64,000 nucleotides of DNA from positions 1 through 64,000 of the forward strand of contig SHXF01000005.1 of assembly GCA_009693435.1 (NCBI GenBank). Direction: 5' to 3'. A model generated the notes under the pieces. That model saw only the letters and a list, made by a program, of their open reading frames with translations, did not search any database and was not told the DNA's origin. The stretch comes from Betaproteobacteria bacterium. Lineage in GTDB: Bacteria > Pseudomonadota > Gammaproteobacteria > Burkholderiales > SG8-39. Both the position numbers and the translations under genes were made by a program. Each line of letters opens with the position of its first letter. Positions within the stretch are counted from its first letter, which is position 1. This document shows, piece by piece, positions 7,514-28,308 of this stretch.

Positions 7514-9874
7514 TTACCGCAGTTCGCGTACTGCACCCGGGTTATGGATTGCACGCCAGACCCGTTCGGCCGTGGCCGGCATCGGCAGGTCGGTGATGCC
7601 CCACGGCGAGAGCGCGTCCAGGATGGCGTGGATTATCGCCGGCGGGGCGCCTACGTTGCCGGCTTCGCTGCCGCCCTTGACGCCCAGCAGGTTGGTCTTG
7701 GTCGGCACCGCGTGCACTTCGGCGCGCATGTGCGGCAGGTCATCGGCGCGCGGCATGCCGTAGTCGAGGAACGAGCCGGTGAGCAGCTGGCCCGTTTCAC
7801 GCTCGTACACCACCTCTTCGAACAACGCCTGGCCGAGTCCCTGCGCGACCGAGCCGTGCAGCTGGCCTTCCAGCGTCAGTGGATTGACCACTGTGCCGAC
7901 ATCATCGGCCGCCGAGAGTGCCACCACCTTGACCGCGCCGGTTTCCGGATCGACCTCGACTTCGCAGATCATGCAGCCGTTGGGAAACGTGTTGGGACCG
8001 GGATGCGTGCCTACGCCATCCAGTCCTATGCCTAATGCAGGCGGCAACCCTATTCCCTGGAAGGATTTCTTCGCGACCTCGGCAAATCCCAGGCTGCGGT
8101 CGGTGCCCTTCACCGTGAATCGGCCGCGCACGAATTCGATGTCGGAGTCGGCCGCCTCCAGCATCCATCCGGCGATGCGTTTGCCTTTCGCGATCACTAC
8201 GTCGGCGGCCAGTTTCAGGGCCGATCCGCCGGCATTCATGCTGCGCTGGGCGAAGGTGCCGCGACCGTAGAGCAGCTTGTCGGTGTCGCCCTGGAAAATG
8301 CGCACGCCGGACAAGGGCACGCCCAGCCAGTCCGATGCCATCTGGGCGAACATGGTCTCGTGGCCCTGCCCGGTGGACAAGGTGCCGGCGTGGAGCGCGA
8401 CGCTGCCATCCTGAGCCACGCGGATCTCCATGCGTTCGGACTGGCTGCCGGCGCGCTGGCAATGCATGGCCAATCCGATGCCGCGACGCAGCCCGCGCTG
8501 CTCGCTGGCAGCCCGCCGGAGGGGAAAGCCGTTCCAGTCGGCAAGCTGCAACGCCTTGTCGAGCACCTGCTCGAATTCGCCGGAGTCGAATAGATAGCCG
8601 CCCGGTGTCCTGTAGGGCATGGCCGATGCCGGGATGAGGTTGCGGCGGCGAATCGCCACGGCATCGATACCCATTTCGTGCGCCGCCTTGTCGATGAGGC
8701 GCTCGATGACGAACGTCGCTTCCGGCTTGGCCGTGCCGCGATACGGCCCGATGACGCTGGTGTTGGTGAAGGCGGCACGCACGCGCGCATGGATGAGCGG
8801 AATATCGTAGGTGTTGGTGTAGCTGACGGCGGCATTGAGCGGCGCCACGCCCGCCGAGTAGCCGAGGTAGGCGCCCAGATCGATGGTCACCGAGGTGCGC
8901 AGCGCCAGCACCCGTCCATCGGCATTCAGTGCGATCTCCGCCTCGGTGAGCTGATGGCGGCCGTGCATGTCCGCGGCGAGGCTTTCGCTGCGGTCCGCCG
9001 TCCATTTCACCGGACGGTCCAGCCGGCTCGCCGCCCACAACACCAGCGCTTCCTCGGGATAGATCTGGCTTTTCATGCCGAATCCGCCGCCGACATCCGG
9101 CGCCAGCACGCGCAGGCTCTGTTCGGGGATGCCGAGAACGGCGCACAGGATTTCCCGCACCTGATAGGGCGATTGCGTGGCCGAGCACAGCGTGTAGCGG
9201 CCGTCGTGTGCATCGCGCCAGGCAAGCGCGCTGCGCGGCTCGATGGCGTTGGCCGAGGCGCGCGGATACTGGATGAAGAGCCGCGTGACGTGCGCCGCTC
9301 GCGCGAATTGCGCGTCGACCGCCTTGCCATCGCCGCGCTCCAGTTCGAAGCTTGCGTTGCTGCCGGCGGCATCCCAGACGAGCGGCGCGCCGGGTTCGAG
9401 CGCGTCGGCCAGGGTGACGGCCTGCAGGGGATCGTAATCGATGGCAATCAGTTCGCCCGCGTCCCGCGCCTGTGCTGCCGTCTCCGCGACGACGAGTGCG
9501 ATGGCGTCTCCGACGTGCCTCGCTTTGTCGATAGCAAGTATCGGTTGCAGTGGACGATAGAAACGGCTGCCAGCGGGCAGCGCGGGAAATGCTTCGCACG
9601 GCAGGCTGCCTATGCCCTGCAGGACGAGGTCGGCGCCGGTGAAGATTGCCAGCACGCCGGGCGCGGCGAGCGCGGCGCGTTTGTCGATCGCGGTGATGCG
9701 CGCATGGGCGTGAGGCGAGCGCACCACGTGGGCGCAGGCGCACCGGGCTGGCTGCATGTCATCGACGAAACGGCCGCGTCCGGTGAGGAAGCGCGCATCT
9801 TCCAGGCGCCGCACCGGCGCGCCGATTCCGGTTGCGCCCTCCGGCGCGATCTTGTCTGCCACTGGCTCAATCAT
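7514..9874 (-). CDS. Xanthine dehydrogenase-family molybdopterin-binding (CoxL-like) subunit
   Basis: This is the large, molybdenum-cofactor-binding subunit of a xanthine dehydrogenase/aldehyde oxidase/CO dehydrogenase-type hydroxylase, 786 residues with the start at 9874. The N-terminal GAPVRRLEDARFLTGRGRFVDD, the cofactor loop VGGGFGMK, the GQGHE loop and the C-terminal GVKGGSEAGNVGAPP with the catalytic glutamate are all present. The substrate loop reads PYRGTAKPEA, so it is not a form I CO dehydrogenase. The 2Fe-2S and FAD subunits that normally accompany it are absent here. An in-frame GTG at 9895 is an alternative start, but the AAGGA ribosome site fits 9874 better. Confidence 0.92.
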   Translation of the reverse strand: MIEPVADKIAPEGATGIGAPVRRLEDARFLTGRGRFVDDMQPARCACAHVVRSPHAHARITAIDKRAALAAPGVLAIFTGADLVLQGIGSLPCEAFPALPAGSRFYRPLQPILAIDKARHVGDAIALVVAETAAQARDAGELIAIDYDPLQAVTLADALEPGAPLVWDAAGSNASFELERGDGKAVDAQFARAAHVTRLFIQYPRASANAIEPRSALAWRDAHDGRYTLCSATQSPYQVREILCAVLGIPEQSLRVLAPDVGGGFGMKSQIYPEEALVLWAASRLDRPVKWTADRSESLAADMHGRHQLTEAEIALNADGRVLALRTSVTIDLGAYLGYSAGVAPLNAAVSYTNTYDIPLIHARVRAAFTNTSVIGPYRGTAKPEATFVIERLIDKAAHEMGIDAVAIRRRNLIPASAMPYRTPGGYLFDSGEFEQVLDKALQLADWNGFPLRRAASEQRGLRRGIGLAMHCQRAGSQSERMEIRVAQDGSVALHAGTLSTGQGHETMFAQMASDWLGVPLSGVRIFQGDTDKLLYGRGTFAQRSMNAGGSALKLAADVVIAKGKRIAGWMLEAADSDIEFVRGRFTVKGTDRSLGFAEVAKKSFQGIGLPPALGIGLDGVGTHPGPNTFPNGCMICEVEVDPETGAVKVVALSAADDVGTVVNPLTLEGQLHGSVAQGLGQALFEEVVYERETGQLLTGSFLDYGMPRADDLPHMRAEVHAVPTKTNLLGVKGGSEAGNVGAPPAIIHAILDALSPWGITDLPMPATAERVWRAIHNPGAVRELR

Positions 9875-10006
9875 CGGGACTGCGTTCCTTTCCACGGGGA
9901 GCGACTATTGTTCCGCGGGGCGCGCCGGCATCGAGCCGTCTCCGTGCCGTATCAGGCCGCCGGGTCCGATCGGGTGGGCGACGCGCCAGACCCGGGTTAC
10001 CGCAAG

Positions 10007-10378
10007 TCAGGCACCGGTCTTCAGCGTGCGCTCGATCAATTTCTGCAGGTCGACGGCGACTACCGGCTTGGTCAGGTACCCGGAGATACCCAATACCGTG
10101 GCCTCGCTCCATATTTCATCGTCACCGTGACCGGTAAGCAATATCACCGGGATGTGCGCGGTTTTCTCGTCGCCGCGTATCGCCCTGAGCAGTTCAATAC
10201 CGTTCAAGTAGGGCATGTTCACATCGCAGACGACGAGCTGGAAGGCGTCCTCGAGCAATGCGCGGATCGCCTCCGTCGCGTCGGCCGCCGCAAGCACCGA
10301 ATGACCGTGCATGGACAGATGCAGGCGCAGCAGTTCGCGCAGCGAAACGTCGTCGTCGACAACCAGGATTCGGGCCAT
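10007..10378 (-). CDS. CheY-like response regulator receiver protein
   Basis: This is a single receiver domain of 123 residues with no output domain. The acidic pocket D8-D10, phosphoacceptor D52 in VVCDVNMP, T82 and K104 in YLTKP are all in place, so it can be phosphorylated. No histidine kinase is in the window. It may act as a diffusible output or a phosphotransfer intermediate. It lies between the molybdopterin oxidase and the TAXI receptor on the same strand, with gaps of about 130 bases on both sides. Confidence 0.95.
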   Translation of the reverse strand: MARILVVDDDVSLRELLRLHLSMHGHSVLAAADATEAIRALLEDAFQLVVCDVNMPYLNGIELLRAIRGDEKTAHIPVILLTGHGDDEIWSEATVLGISGYLTKPVVAVDLQKLIERTLKTGA

Positions 10379-10512: not shown

Positions 10513-11868
10513 TTACCGAAGCGCCGCCGCTGCAGCCGCAAGCCGTTCGCGCACCAGCTTGATGTGGCTGCGCAGCGCGTACAACTCGTCGGTGTAGGAA
10601 AGCGGCACCGATATACCCTCGGCCTTCTCGTCCAGGCGGTTCAGTTTTTCCAGCAGCGCCGCCTGCGGTTCCGCGTTGCCGCTCAAGGCATCCTCGATAT
10701 CGCGCAACTGCCGGTACCAGCGGAAAATGCGCGAGCGGATGCGAAAGTCATACAGCGGCGGGACGACGCGCGATAGCGGGATGAGCACGGCAATGATGGA
10801 GACCAGTGCGACCCACATGCGGTCAATCAGGTTGGCCAGCCAGAAGGGCAGGTAGCGTTGCAGGAAGGGCGGCCCGGTGCGGTAGTAGCGCTCGGCCTCC
10901 CTGGCGAGCGGCAACTCGGTGTTCTGTCCCGAGGGGAACTGCCCGGCGCGGGCAATCCAGCCAGTGCCGCCATGTATGGTCTGCGCGGCCTGGACGAACA
11001 GTTGCTGCAGCGCCGGGTGGGTGCGCTCGCGCAAGATCAGGGCAGTCGTGGTGGCGACCAGGGGCATGTCGTGTGCCGGCTGGTCGCGGCCGAGGTCGAT
11101 CACGCCGCGCGGCAGCACCACCGGCCTGAGATAGGGCATGCGCCTGGCGTACGCCTCGGCCTGCGCAAACTCGAATAGCCGGATTCCGGGTGTCAGGAGC
11201 AGCATCTGCACCAGCGACGCCTCGGGCGTAGCGGCAAGCAGAATGGCGTCCAGGTTGCCCTCCAGCAGTCCCATCACCGCGGGCGTGGACTCCAGGCGTG
11301 TGCGTTCCATGCTTTCGCGTTCGATGCCATTGGCGTGCAGCACCTTGCCGAACAGTCCCGACGTGCCGCTGCCGCGCGCGCCCACGTTCACGCGCCATCC
11401 CTTCAACTGGCCCAATTGCGACAGCACGCCGCGAGGCAGTTTCTTCGCCGATTTCTCGCGGTAGAACAGCCATAGTGGTTCGAGCGACATGCTGCCCAGC
11501 GATACCAGCGGCACGCCGCCCGCCTCCTCATCGGATGCGCGCAGGGCATCGCTCGACCCGCCCCGCACGAAACCCAGATCCACTTGCTGGAGAGGATCGC
11601 GCAGCAGGCGCCGGTTCTCCGATGAGCCGGCCGTCTGCTTGAGCACTACCTCGATGCCGTAGGGTTTGAGGGCAGCGGCATAGCGCGCGCCAAACGCGGC
11701 GTAATCGCCACCCGCGGGACCGGTTGCCATCACGACGCGGCGCGGTGGCGTCGGTTCCAGCAGGAAGTACGCCGCGACCAGCGACACCATGACCAGCGCC
11801 GCGAACGGACCGGCGGTGATGGCCAGATCACGGGCGGATATCAGGGTGTTGCGCAGGACGCGGGACAT
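10513..11868 (-). CDS. TAXI-family TRAP-type solute-binding protein with membrane anchors
   Basis: This 451-residue receptor of the TAXI family is anchored at its N-terminus by a membrane segment at about 16-37. A ligand-binding domain opens with VVMATGPAGGDYAAFG, the family signature. A second membrane segment at about 351-371 is followed by a cytoplasmic, charged helical tail of about 75 residues. No TRAP permease is adjacent. A tethered receptor with a cytoplasmic tail suggests sensing or a fixed partner rather than a free periplasmic binding protein. That role is inference. Confidence 0.88.
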   Translation of the reverse strand: MSRVLRNTLISARDLAITAGPFAALVMVSLVAAYFLLEPTPPRRVVMATGPAGGDYAAFGARYAAALKPYGIEVVLKQTAGSSENRRLLRDPLQQVDLGFVRGGSSDALRASDEEAGGVPLVSLGSMSLEPLWLFYREKSAKKLPRGVLSQLGQLKGWRVNVGARGSGTSGLFGKVLHANGIERESMERTRLESTPAVMGLLEGNLDAILLAATPEASLVQMLLLTPGIRLFEFAQAEAYARRMPYLRPVVLPRGVIDLGRDQPAHDMPLVATTTALILRERTHPALQQLFVQAAQTIHGGTGWIARAGQFPSGQNTELPLAREAERYYRTGPPFLQRYLPFWLANLIDRMWVALVSIIAVLIPLSRVVPPLYDFRIRSRIFRWYRQLRDIEDALSGNAEPQAALLEKLNRLDEKAEGISVPLSYTDELYALRSHIKLVRERLAAAAAALR

Positions 11869-25264: not shown

Positions 25265-25721
25265 GGTTCAGAACTCCTTGCGTAGTGTCCGTTGTCTGGA
25301 TGTTCGTTCGAGAACCCCTGGGTGAGGATCTCCAACCAGAGAGGTTACTGCGTCCGCGCCAATTACAACATTTCCGAACGGTGCTTGTCATCCGCCGCCT
25401 GGAGCGCCCGAAACCGGGGGAGGAGTGGCTCTCCCTGACGCCAATGTCATCGTGTCTCGCGGCAACGGGTGGCGGCATAGGACATTTGCCGGCGGCAGAG
25501 GTGTCGGCAATGGCCGGTATCGAGCAGGTCGAATGACTGGTAACGACCCTATGCCGCCATGGGCTATCGGCGGTTTGGCTCTGCTTTGAGGCACGCAGTT
25601 AAATAAAGTGGCATGCCGGTTTTCACGGTTTGTTAGTACACTGATTGCACGCATCGAGGGGCCGAAAAACCAATGGGCACATGGAGTTCCGGAGGAACAT
25701 GCTCGCCAGGTAATGGCGCAG
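25265..25721. other. Gene-free region between the Rho-N-like gene and the attI-like site
   Basis: About 450 bases hold no convincing gene. In class 1 integrons an integrase gene would lie here on the minus strand, but no frame here shows integrase motifs. A hairpin with CCGCC and GGCGG arms lies near 25554-25576. A lone GTTAAAT at 25598 matches the integron core consensus but has no partner and is not called. Confidence 0.55.
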
Positions 25722-25768
25722 TCGGGTATGTAACGCAGCAAAACTGTCGCCCGACATTACGTTAGAGC
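25722..25768 (+). other. attI-like recombination site
   Basis: The stretch ATGTAACGCAGCA ... CTGTCGCCC ... GTTAGAG matches the class 1 attI site as I recall it (ATGTTACGCAGCA, CAGTCGCCC, GTTAGG) at the same order and near-identical spacing. The core is GTTAGAG at 25761-25767, with the expected exchange point between G25761 and T25762. It lies just before the first cassette. The match is from memory and not from an alignment. Confidence 0.6.
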
Positions 25769-26289
25769 GCAAGGCCACGATGGATACGCTTTCAGGGTTT
25801 ATTGATGCCGTGGTCCAGAATTGGGAGCTCCTTGCGTACGCGGTTACTACTGCTGGGGCTGGAGCTGTGCTGCTTGTCCAAGTGCTGACAATATGGAAGT
25901 TGAAATTGGAGATCGAAAAGCTCAAAGCGGTGGTCGCAAAGCCTGATCCCTTGCCTCAAGTAGTAGTCGCTACGGCCGCAGACCTTCAGCGCGAGATTGA
26001 GTTGCGACGCGCACGTTTCGAGAAAGAGCGCAACAAGATGCATGGGTGGGATGCCGCTGGGCTAATGGCACTTTCTGGTGCGTTGTTTGCTAACCTACCT
26101 ATGCTCATCTATTTGCTGCTAGGAGCGCTAACAATCGCCGTCGGCCTCGCTATCATCGGTATGCGTTTGGATCGGAAACAGGAGGTTCTGTTGGCAAAGC
26201 TCAGTCACCGCGCAGCCAATAGTGCGCTCTAACAAGCCAATGGAGCGGACGCCTCCGTGCTGCGCACTTCGGCGCCGCTCATCGGCACG
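25762..26289 (+). mobile_element. Integron gene cassette A
   Basis: The cassette starts TTAGAGCGCA and its attC site begins with the exact complement TGCGCTCTAA at 26223-26232, so the ends would pair as in an excised cassette circle. It carries one small gene, 25780-26232. Its 3' boundary is the G before TTGAGC at 26290. Confidence 0.78.
25780..26232 (+). CDS. Cassette-encoded membrane protein of unknown function
   Basis: This 150-residue protein has a membrane segment at about 17-38, a charged helical region at 39-88 likely to form a coiled coil, and two closely spaced hydrophobic segments at about 92-128. Its C-terminal tail is short and cytoplasmic or periplasmic. It ends with the stop codon inside the attC R'' box. 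I do not recognise a family. Base composition looks lower in GC than the flanking genes, which fits a cassette of foreign origin. Confidence 0.72.
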   Translation: MDTLSGFIDAVVQNWELLAYAVTTAGAGAVLLVQVLTIWKLKLEIEKLKAVVAKPDPLPQVVVATAADLQREIELRRARFEKERNKMHGWDAAGLMALSGALFANLPMLIYLLLGALTIAVGLAIIGMRLDRKQEVLLAKLSHRAANSAL

Positions 26290-26295
26290 TTGAGC
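26227..26295. other. attC-like site of cassette A
   Basis: The site runs from CTCTAAC (26227-26233) to GTTGAGC (26289-26295), about 69 bases. The arms AAGCCAATGGAGCGGACGCC and GGCGCCGCTCATCGGCAC pair as an imperfect hairpin, as in attC sites. The first base deviates from the RYYYAAC consensus, but it pairs with the matching deviation at the cassette start. Confidence 0.72.
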
Positions 26296-26991
26296 GGCAC
26301 TCGAAGTGCGATGAAGTTCAACTGGTTACTTGCTGCGGCACTACTTCTCTCGCCGACCGCCGCTGTCGCCGACAATGAGGCCCGTAACACGACTCGTATT
26401 TTCGCCAGCCGGTACGGCAACTGCTTCGCCAAGTCGGTACCGATGGAGACGTACGGCGAGAAAGGCGTGACCAAGGTATTCTTGGTTGGAGCGGGAACGG
26501 ACAGACTAGTGCATACCTACAACTGGTACGCGCCGCAGGTCTTCCTGGAGTGCAACGTCGCGCCCGCCGGCAAACCGGTGGCTGTCTCCGTTGCTCGCAT
26601 CGGTCCGTGGCCCCGTGGACGACGCGCAAACGCGTCTGATCTGGCCATCGCCTTTTATCGCGGTGGCCAACTTCTCAAACGGTACTCAACTCTCGACATC
26701 GCGGACGCCCCCGACAATGTAAGCGCCAGCGTGTCGCACTACAGCGTGTTGGACCACATTGATGGTTACCGCTGGGGAACCGGCAATGAATATAGCTTTC
26801 AAGTGCGGACCGTTGACGGAAGGAGCCTCTCCTTTGACGCTGCAACGGGTGCGCTCATTGGGAATCATTCCATGGGCATGTCCATTCCTCAGAGGCACCG
26901 GTGACCTGCCGCCCAACTCGGCGCTCAACCTCGTTCGCATCGCTTACTGGACGCTGCGCGATAAAGGCGCGCAGCGCCGGTTAGCTCTACG
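26290..26991 (+). mobile_element. Integron gene cassette B
   Basis: The cassette begins TTGAGCGGCA. Its attC begins TGCCGCCCAA at 26907-26916, which is complementary at nine of ten bases. One gene lies inside, at 26311-26904. The end is the G at 26991 before TTAGAT. Confidence 0.76.
26311..26904 (+). CDS. Cassette-encoded secreted protein of unknown function
   Basis: This 197-residue protein starts with a clear signal peptide (hydrophobic core 5-13, cleavage likely after AAVA at residue 20), so it is periplasmic or secreted. Two cysteines, C38 and C81, could form one disulfide bond. The rest is beta-rich by eye with no motif I recognise. The start at 26311 was chosen because the signal peptide begins there and the longer frame runs back into the attC site. 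Its stop is just before the cassette's own attC. Confidence 0.7.
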   Translation: MKFNWLLAAALLLSPTAAVADNEARNTTRIFASRYGNCFAKSVPMETYGEKGVTKVFLVGAGTDRLVHTYNWYAPQVFLECNVAPAGKPVAVSVARIGPWPRGRRANASDLAIAFYRGGQLLKRYSTLDIADAPDNVSASVSHYSVLDHIDGYRWGTGNEYSFQVRTVDGRSLSFDAATGALIGNHSMGMSIPQRHR

Positions 26992-26997
26992 TTAGAT
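26911..26997. other. attC-like site of cassette B
   Basis: The site runs from GCCCAAC (26911) to GTTAGAT (26991-26997), both exact matches to RYYYAAC and GTTRRRY. An internal hairpin with arms CGCTGCGCG and CGCGCAGCG lies at about 26952-26978. Outer arms CTCAACC and GGTTAGC support the fold. Confidence 0.8.
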
Positions 26998-27563
26998 CGC
27001 AAAACAAGGAGAATCGCATGCAGGACATATTTCTGGCCACGATCCAGCACGCGTCCTGGCCCATAGCAATTCTTATCGCGCTCTTTGTCCTGCGGAAAGA
27101 GGTACGGTCGCTCCTGGGCAGAATTCGAGGATTCAAGGCCGGTAAAGTCGAACTCAAATTCAATGAGGAATTGGAACAGCAAGGATTCACGAAAAAGCAA
27201 CTGGCCACGTTACGGACGCTGACAGCGGACGAGATTGACCTCTTTCTTCTGGTCTCGTTCTCGGAAGCACCGAACTTCAGATACCAAACTGGTATTGACC
27301 CGGCAATATTTCGCCAACACATGTCGCGCTTAGAAGAATCCGGCCTGCTGACAATCACAAATCCAGAGAATGACGGTAGCAACCTGCTACATAACTTGAC
27401 GCCTTTAGGCCGACGCGCGCGCTCACTATTCGTAAATAGTACGGTCGAACTCCTCAGGAAATCTACGTAAGGTGCGTTGCGATCTAACCTTTAGCTGGCG
27501 CGGACGGGCCGGAAGCACCGTGCCATTCATCGTCGCCGTGCTGGCCCGCCGCACAGCACAACG
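26992..27563 (+). mobile_element. Integron gene cassette C
   Basis: The cassette begins TTAGATCGCA and its attC begins with the perfect complement TGCGATCTAA at 27478-27487. It holds one gene, 27018-27470. The end is G27563 before TTAAGT. Confidence 0.82.
27018..27470 (+). CDS. Cassette-encoded membrane-tethered protein, possible winged helix
   Basis: This 150-residue protein has an N-terminal membrane segment (about residues 13-26), a basic stretch at 27-45, and a soluble C-terminal part. The C-terminal part has helices and the pattern HMSRLEESGLLTI followed by NLTPLGRRARSLF, which resembles the recognition-helix and wing region of a winged-helix DNA-binding fold. An AAGGAG ribosome site lies seven bases before the ATG. 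No family is recognised; the winged-helix call is by pattern only. Confidence 0.7.
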   Translation: MQDIFLATIQHASWPIAILIALFVLRKEVRSLLGRIRGFKAGKVELKFNEELEQQGFTKKQLATLRTLTADEIDLFLLVSFSEAPNFRYQTGIDPAIFRQHMSRLEESGLLTITNPENDGSNLLHNLTPLGRRARSLFVNSTVELLRKST

Positions 27564-27569
27564 TTAAGT
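27482..27569. other. attC-like site of cassette C
   Basis: The site runs from ATCTAAC (27482) to GTTAAGT (27563-27569), both within consensus. Arms GGCGCGGACGGGCC and GGCCCGCCGC pair imperfectly with one unpaired base, like the extrahelical base that directs attC strand choice. No further cassette follows; the next sequence is an IS remnant. Confidence 0.8.
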
Positions 27570-27634
27570 CATGGCGAACGACCGCAATGGACCGTATCCC
27601 GACAGGGAGTGTGGTGGCGCTTAGCAAAACATGG

Positions 27635-28105
27635 ATTCCGTAAATTCGGTCTGAACGATTTTGCGATTTTCGGCTGGCCGGAGCGATGAGGGCGCGTAGC
27701 GCCGAAAGAGCGCAGAACGGTCGCAAATCGCTGCGCCGCGATCGGGGCGTGCGGCAGGCGGATCCATCGAGGCATCATAAATCCTGACCTCGAAGGAATC
27801 CTTGAAATGGCTCAACGTGTAGCACACAATCCCCTGCAAGATGCTTTCACCACACTTCTCAACCACGCACGGACTGGACGGTGCCGGCGATGCCCTGCGC
27901 ATCCTGGTGATGAGGCCAGCAAGATCGAGCGCGGGAACTTCCGCAACGCCGGCGCCTACGAGCGCAGCGCCGAGAGGGTGGATTACGCCAAAGGCTTCAA
28001 GCCCAAGAGCATGCAGACCCGCCTGGGCGAGATCATCTTCGCCGTGCCGCAGGTACGCGGCGGCGGCTTCTACCCGAAACCGTCTTCGGCCAATTTACAG
28101 AAAAG
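27635..28105 (+). mobile_element. Internally deleted IS256-family insertion sequence
   Basis: The left end TTCCGTAAATTCGG near 27637 and the right end near 28088-28105 (reverse complement TTCTGTAAATTGGCCG) are imperfect inverted repeats. Between them is the first part of a transposase: MAQRVAHNPLQDAF ..., the GAYERSAERVDYAKGFKPK motif of IS256 transposases and TRLGEIIFAVPQVRGGGFYP. Two compensating frameshifts occur near residues 20-35, and the coding frame ends after about 90 residues of an expected 400. The element is dead unless mobilised in trans. No target-site duplication was found. Confidence 0.75.
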
Positions 28106-28126
28106 AAGTTGCACAACCGTCGTGGG

Positions 28127-28308
28127 GATCCGCTTGCCGCTGCACTGAAGGGCGCGCTCGGCGATGCGGCGTTCTCGAAGCGGCTGGCGGAATTCGGCGT
28201 GCAGCTGGTGGCAGCCGATCGCGTCGGGCCGGACGGATTCGCGGCCTATTTCCGTTCCAAAGGAAATGGGCGCCGGTGATCGAGGCGGCGGGCATCTATG
28301 CGGACTGA
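28127..28308 (+). pseudogene. 3' stub of a TctC/Bug receptor gene
   Basis: The frame reads AALKGALGDAAFSKRLAEFG, then a region ending FAAYFRS. After a one-base deletion near 28262 it continues WAPVIEAAGIYAD in another frame. This is the C-terminal helix pair of Bug proteins. The first 250 or so residues are missing; the deleted IS256 copy and the cassette array occupy the position where they would be. Confidence 0.78.

Follow-up and report, generated by a model that had tools for sequence, protein, structure and literature searches.

An integron cassette array with a retained attI site and an integrase gene very probably lost in place

Clusters of at least two attC sites with their cassettes and no integrase gene nearby form the CALIN category of IntegronFinder; 2961 CALINs have been reported beside 2760 complete integrons, and IntegronFinder 2.0 detects no attI outside class 1 (PMC9024848). 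Three routes by which CALINs arise have been proposed, namely insertion at off-target sites, intI loss, and rearrangement (PMC8618304). One survey called nearly a third of intI genes pseudogenes (PMC2426708), and in survey data loss of LexA control correlates with integrase inactivation (PMC3108266). A search of the open-licence literature returned no paper on an attI site retained together with a few intI codons.

The locus described here lies in a 64-kb stretch of DNA, the whole of which was analysed and is referred to as the window. Positions 25761–27569 hold a run of three integron gene cassettes, each consisting of one gene and a closing attC site; the three short genes are co-directional, and an imperfect hairpin follows each of them. 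The G|TT boundaries of the cassettes are at 25761, 26289, 26991, and 27563. Cassette A (25761–26288), extending from its own G|TT to that of cassette B, carries gene A (25780–26232) and attC A (26226–26295); cassette B (26289–26990) carries gene B (26311–26904) and the 87-nt attC B (26911–26997); and cassette C (26991–27562) carries gene C (27018–27470) and attC C (27482–27569), all on the plus strand. The first-pass annotation of this DNA had started the array at 25722, which proved to be no cassette boundary: positions 25722–25760 belong to the attI site, and cassette A runs from 25761/25762.

On the left, the array is neighboured by genes for a luciferase-like monooxygenase and a Rho_N-like protein, the latter just under the Pfam cut-off, and on the right by a CoA-transferase gene. 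Its right border is the remnant of an IS256-family transposase gene (27807–28148, plus strand), which matches Pfam PF00872 over and NCBIfam NF033543 below the cut-off and shares 72.5% identity with an IS406-like element across some 205 bases. Positions 27563–27625 may hold a fourth cassette start that would have been truncated by this remnant; as judged by eye, a frame of 17 codons starts there with an ATG at 27571. The window also encodes an SrkA-like kinase with 69–72% identity to those in five genomes out of 299 searched from the phylum of genome G008; judging by gene content, these genomes and the window are probably Burkholderiales-like. The longest contig that encodes the cassette proteins measures 80,952 bases and is probably the window's own, so that about 17 kb of it would lie outside the window.

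Since Rfam gave nothing in the window at gathering thresholds, arrays adjoining intI genes were used to derive an attC model. The integrase gene is common in the order of genome G179, being present in 118 of 300 genomes searched at E ≤ 1e-60, in 114 of them with a match over the curated cut-off. Up to 20 kb was fetched around 20 of the positives, and a strict motif scan of these regions yielded 38 candidate attC sites, of which 33 were aligned to give covariance model R1 and five were left out as very long or apparently outside arrays. Model R1 found 138 sites in the same 20 regions, and these served to train model R2. Both training sets exclude the window, which was scanned on both strands with filters off. 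Both models place attC B, A, and C as the top three matches in 64 kb, on a single strand and each closing a gene, with E-values, rough by the tool's own statement, of 4.9e-12 (R1) and 2.1e-12 (R2) for attC B, 0.019 and 0.0034 for attC A, and 0.35 and 0.14 for attC C. The first-pass annotation had expected attC model matches at these places, and those at 26226, 26911, and 27482 do rank first; attC B alone is conclusive by the covariance model, and A and C are weak on score alone, attC C exceeding the next window match under R2 by only 0.7 bits (16.0 versus 15.3).

The strict motif scan of the 64 kb returned sites B and C only, against a background of 0.08 matches per 64 kb for both strands (60 order-2 Markov simulations); site C, being near-palindromic, was also matched once on the opposite strand. 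At the remaining site, attC A opens with CTCTAAC and cassette A starts with GTTAGAG; neither strictly fits the motifs, and the two deviations compensate each other. The three units with hairpins bounded by RYYYAAC and GTTRRRY that had been described earlier are thus borne out as units, genes, and attC sites, although cassette A has these ends, within the same architecture, through compensated deviations only.

When the bottom strands were folded and compared with shuffled sequences, the result was strong for attC A (z −4.2; none of 200 shuffles as good), moderate for attC C (z −2.1), and no better than shuffles for attC B (z −0.5; 60 of 200 as good). Site B is 83–90% identical over 74–102 bases to attC sites in six intI-adjacent arrays (L067, L068, L071, L074, L075, and L078); weaker matches extend beyond those six, some of the same genomes recurring under other locus names. 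Site C is secured by its homology to other attC sites, namely the first attC of the array on contig C74 of genome G401 (G401:C74; 80% over 86 bases, E 5e-13) and a site beside intI in L047 that is also matched by the model (73% over 82 bases, E 3e-4). No homologue of this kind was found for attC A, which is supported by its fold and by perfect cassette geometry.

This geometry was assessed by comparing the first ten bases of a cassette with the complement of the last ten through R''. The values for cassettes A, B, and C are 10, 9, and 10 of 10, exactly as first noted. Among consecutive cassettes of intI-adjacent arrays, 69 of 104 reach at least 9 of 10 (132 of the 138 R1 sites were used, five partial sites and one on the other strand being left out), and of 10,712 pairs in which start and end come from different cassettes, 4.8% reach this level. 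Each unit in the window thus has one gene and a start complementary to its own attC, as in a cassette array, and the initial assignment to integron cassettes is upheld by model matches, attC homology, and controlled geometry.

The cassette genes give no clear function. Gene A encodes a protein of 150 aa with hydrophobic stretches, as judged by eye, which has one known relative (83% identity) and no family over the cut-off; no relative turned up in six genomes searched. The 150-aa product of gene C, with a hydrophobic N-terminal anchor seen by eye, has two relatives (65% and 52%), one of them labelled MarR-family by its source, and likewise no family over the cut-off. The 197-aa product of gene B, with a signal-peptide-like start by eye, has 183 matches at E ≤ 0.001, itself counted and 120 of them listed, and is assigned to a family by neither Pfam nor NCBIfam; its structure was modelled confidently as all-beta (mean pLDDT 88.5), but no PDB entry matched the model at E ≤ 0.001, so no function is offered. 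Ordinary chromosomal relatives of gene B occur at nine loci, with 37–52% identity. No attC model match closes the gene at the eight loci where the DNA continues past it (L002 ends 38 bases after the match), and the single weak attC match (E 0.025) falls within the L001 gene itself. An IntI over the cut-off is absent from all nine genomes. The first-pass annotation had named close relatives of all three genes in normal contexts without such sites as the finding that would speak against it; ordinary chromosomal relatives were found for gene B, and genes A and C have one and two known relatives, respectively.

Searches of 300 order-level genomes gave a single, distant relative of gene C, matching in the anchor only, and none of gene B. 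In L081 (G348:C48), positions 1379–2158 hold a cassette gene between two attC sites whose product has an N-terminal membrane-anchor pattern like that of gene C and a different body. Viral contigs contained no relative of A, B, or C passing tblastn, nor did a 23-base piece from the attI-proximal block recur there exactly. On plasmids, no relative of gene C and no match to the left flank were found, gene B had one relative with 36% identity, and the attI block gave only a 19-base match at E 8.

To the left of cassette A, positions 25606–25765 are, by sequence comparison, homologous to the region comprising attI and the start of intI in integrons that are distant relatives of class 1 (attI1/IntI1). 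The putative attI site spans 25700–25765 (plus strand; left edge approximate), with its recombination point G|TT at 25761, and 22 bases at this first junction are 95% identical to the corresponding one in L052, where it precedes the first cassette of an array adjoining intI. A degenerate pattern combining the window with the class 1 attI1 core was searched in 300 genomes with up to three mismatches, and was found at eight places in seven genomes, versus two places for the reversed pattern used as a control; three of these places (two in G091 and one in G435) equal the class 1 attI1 core. Alignment with the window, scored without shuffles, gave 156 for G401:C74, 71–74 for the attI1 places, and 32–48 for the others. 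The attI1 core itself does not occur in the window within three mismatches. Aligned with the window, L031, a class 1 locus, reached a score of 45, the maximum in 30 shuffles being 31. In L031 (G499:C1), the class 1-like attI1 is cut short and is apparently followed by the start of a sulphonamide-resistance gene.

A DNA search with window positions 25600–25775 over 98 genomes of G401's family revealed matches in three genomes. The closest is G637:C60, with 85% identity over 163 bases (E 2e-46) and no intI beside it, followed by G401:C74 (75%, E 3e-20), where the adjoining intI is broken, and G637:C22 (72%, E 4e-12), where the match lies directly before a one-frame intI of 344 codons; the attI-containing alignments with these three span 153–163 bases. 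Also matched were G621:C185, with a broken intI (93% over only 30 bases, E 9e-5), and G637:C6, where no intI was found beside the match (67%, E 3e-4). An order-wide search, in which at most two candidates were scored per genome and copies may be missed, found the block in two of 379 genomes, G637 and G401, and added none. The placement of an attI next to the first cassette, a feature of complete integrons, would thus be present, judging by the similarity to attI regions that adjoin intI genes, whether these are broken or in one frame. A consensus scan for the cassette promoter Pc upstream of cassette A gave no promoter-like site; such a scan does not exclude one.

Beyond the putative attI site, the start of an integrase gene is still readable on the minus strand. 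A GTG at 25626 opens a frame whose first seven codons (25606–25626) read VKTGMPL, after which the frame leaves IntI and reaches a stop after 20 codons. These first codons are near-identical across the window, G637:C60, G401:C74, and G637:C22, the last two proteins starting with MKTGIPL and VKTGIPF, respectively. Of the intI gene of a complete integron, the locus retains these seven codons only. The first-pass annotation had reported no integrase gene in the 64 kb, and tblastn with IntI sequences from 14 of 30 IntI loci and two IntI fragments indeed gave nothing credible there, the best match (E 0.003, 29% identity, 62441–62025) falling inside the frame of another gene. With three clustered attC sites, the single E-values of A and C being weak, and no credible IntI in 64 kb, the locus has the composition of a CALIN.

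The homology of the left border ends differently in different relatives. The alignment with four relatives ends at 25606–25610, and that with G637:C60 continues to 25530, so that the DNA just past the intI break (25530–25605) is common to this integrase-less copy and not to the four others. For positions 25506–25606, the local alignment score against G637:C60 is 54, a value reached by none of 2000 first-order Markov resamples (maximum 41), and the scores against the other four are at chance level. Used alone as a query, without the attI part, the left flank gave a weak match (E 0.02, 71% over 63 bases). The window and G637:C60 therefore appear, from these alignments, to have an integrase-less junction in common. 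The idea that the sequence left of the break corresponds to DNA downstream of intI in relatives is unsupported, as this sequence has no match to the intI loci compared. A perfect 12-base inverted repeat, TGGCGGCATAGG, lies at 25470–25481 and 25548–25559 with a 66-base spacer, left of the break. In G401:C74 (L088/L090), which has a related attI, intI is left in two pieces, one open frame for its N-terminal part and another for its C-terminal part.

In the former intI promoter, the LexA (SOS) box position at 25641–25656 reads CTGATTGCACGCATCG, apparently a decayed form of the CTGTN8ACAG found in intI-bearing relatives. In a comparison resting on seven copies, this motif is exact in all four that bear intI (G637:C22, G401:C74, G621:C185, and the class 1 copy in G091) and missing, even with one mismatch allowed, in all three without an integrase. 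However, an exact box occurs in only one of 24 IntI loci from the order-level intI search, so the absence of the box is by itself no mark of integrase loss.

Behind the shared junction, G637:C60 carries two cassettes, with complementarity of 10 and 9 of 10, that differ from those of the window. At the same locus (L097), positions 10795–11847 hold a 350-aa frame that forms a cassette between two attC sites and whose product resembles, by eye, the substrate-binding protein of an ABC transporter; ABC-permease-like frames lie nearby, and 146 bases of one recur 4.7 kb further on with 90% identity. A second attI of the family in G637, beside which no intI was detected, is followed by three cassettes (10, 10, and 9 of 10) at about 8185–10171 on the minus strand of L099 (G637:C6).

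These observations are best explained by an integron that lost intI in place while attI and the array stayed, a reading in which we place high confidence: the array is still joined to attI and to the first seven codons of intI. The ancestor would have had the customary integron arrangement, with a minus-strand intI, its promoter bearing an SOS (LexA) box, attI, and plus-strand cassettes; the three present cassettes, with their G|TT bounds and an attC each, would have been placed by IntI-type recombination. We infer that a deletion would then have taken intI beyond codon 7, so that only the gene start and its former promoter remained beside attI and the array, and that the cassettes would now be fixed in cis and movable only by an integrase acting from elsewhere. 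The array is most likely a fossil in cis, with cassettes fixed behind attI without an integrase; an intI could be present elsewhere in the host genome, beyond the window. The first-pass annotation had left the choice between a cluster lacking its integrase and a relocated piece; the former is the better description, as loss in place, and relocation is not needed, though the neighbourhoods of the platform differ between the window and G637:C60.

A rather doubtful alternative is that the platform is still used in trans, intI having been lost in the common ancestor of the window and G637:C60 platforms, with later cassette exchange at attI by an integrase encoded elsewhere. This would fit a common intI break with 76 shared bases beyond it in two platforms with different cassettes, homology that gives out within GTTAG, the core sequence at the recombination point, and attI/promoter DNA that is 85% identical, although the SrkA kinases of G637 and the window share only 67%; a Xanthomonas study describes integrase-less clusters as mobilisable in trans (PMC12444791). 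An IntI in one frame, associated with an attI of this family in G637, at first seemed to favour use in trans. However, this protein (L098, G637:C22, 1528–2562; motif TTMICTHV) carries Cys in place of the catalytic Tyr, a residue present in all 14 of 30 IntI loci where the motif was found, and the second G637 IntI stops just past the catalytic Tyr; this makes the reading less likely, since no clearly working helper is seen in G637. Moreover, the shared junction amounts to one relative and about 76 bases, and lateral exchange of the left part alone fits as well. It is a tentative and rather unlikely proposal that, within this attI family, platforms without an integrase persist stably as a type in their own right, in which attI would be kept, intI and the SOS box lost, and cassettes exchanged at attI via integrases in trans, in unrelated chromosomal neighbourhoods of different genomes.

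Two further explanations have little to recommend them. Off-target insertion into a chance secondary chromosomal site, one of the proposed CALIN origins (PMC8618304), would agree with the lack of an integrase in the window and would make the left border ordinary DNA; it is very improbable, as the 160 bases on the left show homology to attI/intI-start regions elsewhere and have the intI start codons in place. The weak scores of attC A and C and the ordinary chromosomal relatives of gene B might even suggest chance hairpins beside unrelated chromosomal genes, but that the top three model matches in 64 kb would then lie on one strand, each closing a gene, with start/end complementarity and an attC B so similar to those of six intI-adjacent arrays, is scarcely conceivable.

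With loss of intI in place as the preferred reading, the locus resembles a CALIN in that its attC sites and cassettes lack a neighbouring integrase gene, and differs in that attI and the first intI codons are kept, making the origin by integrase loss directly readable. It shares recurrent integrase inactivation with integrons that have a decayed intI (pseudo-integrons); unlike in these, the loss of intI is near-complete and not a frameshift or stop, and the same junction apparently occurs in a second genome. Its attI and intI start are recognisably related to those of class 1 integrons and their relatives (attI1/IntI1), but the window has clearly diverged from attI1, and a closer family is found in G401, G621, and G637. 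If the shared junction with different cassettes holds in more genomes, attI sites would be in use without an integrase of their own, and surveys seeking only intI or class 1 attI would miss them. A CALIN formed by integrase loss is of a known kind; what is new is the readable scar, attI with seven intI codons, which singles out loss of intI among the proposed origins, and a hint of continued cassette exchange by integrase-less platforms.
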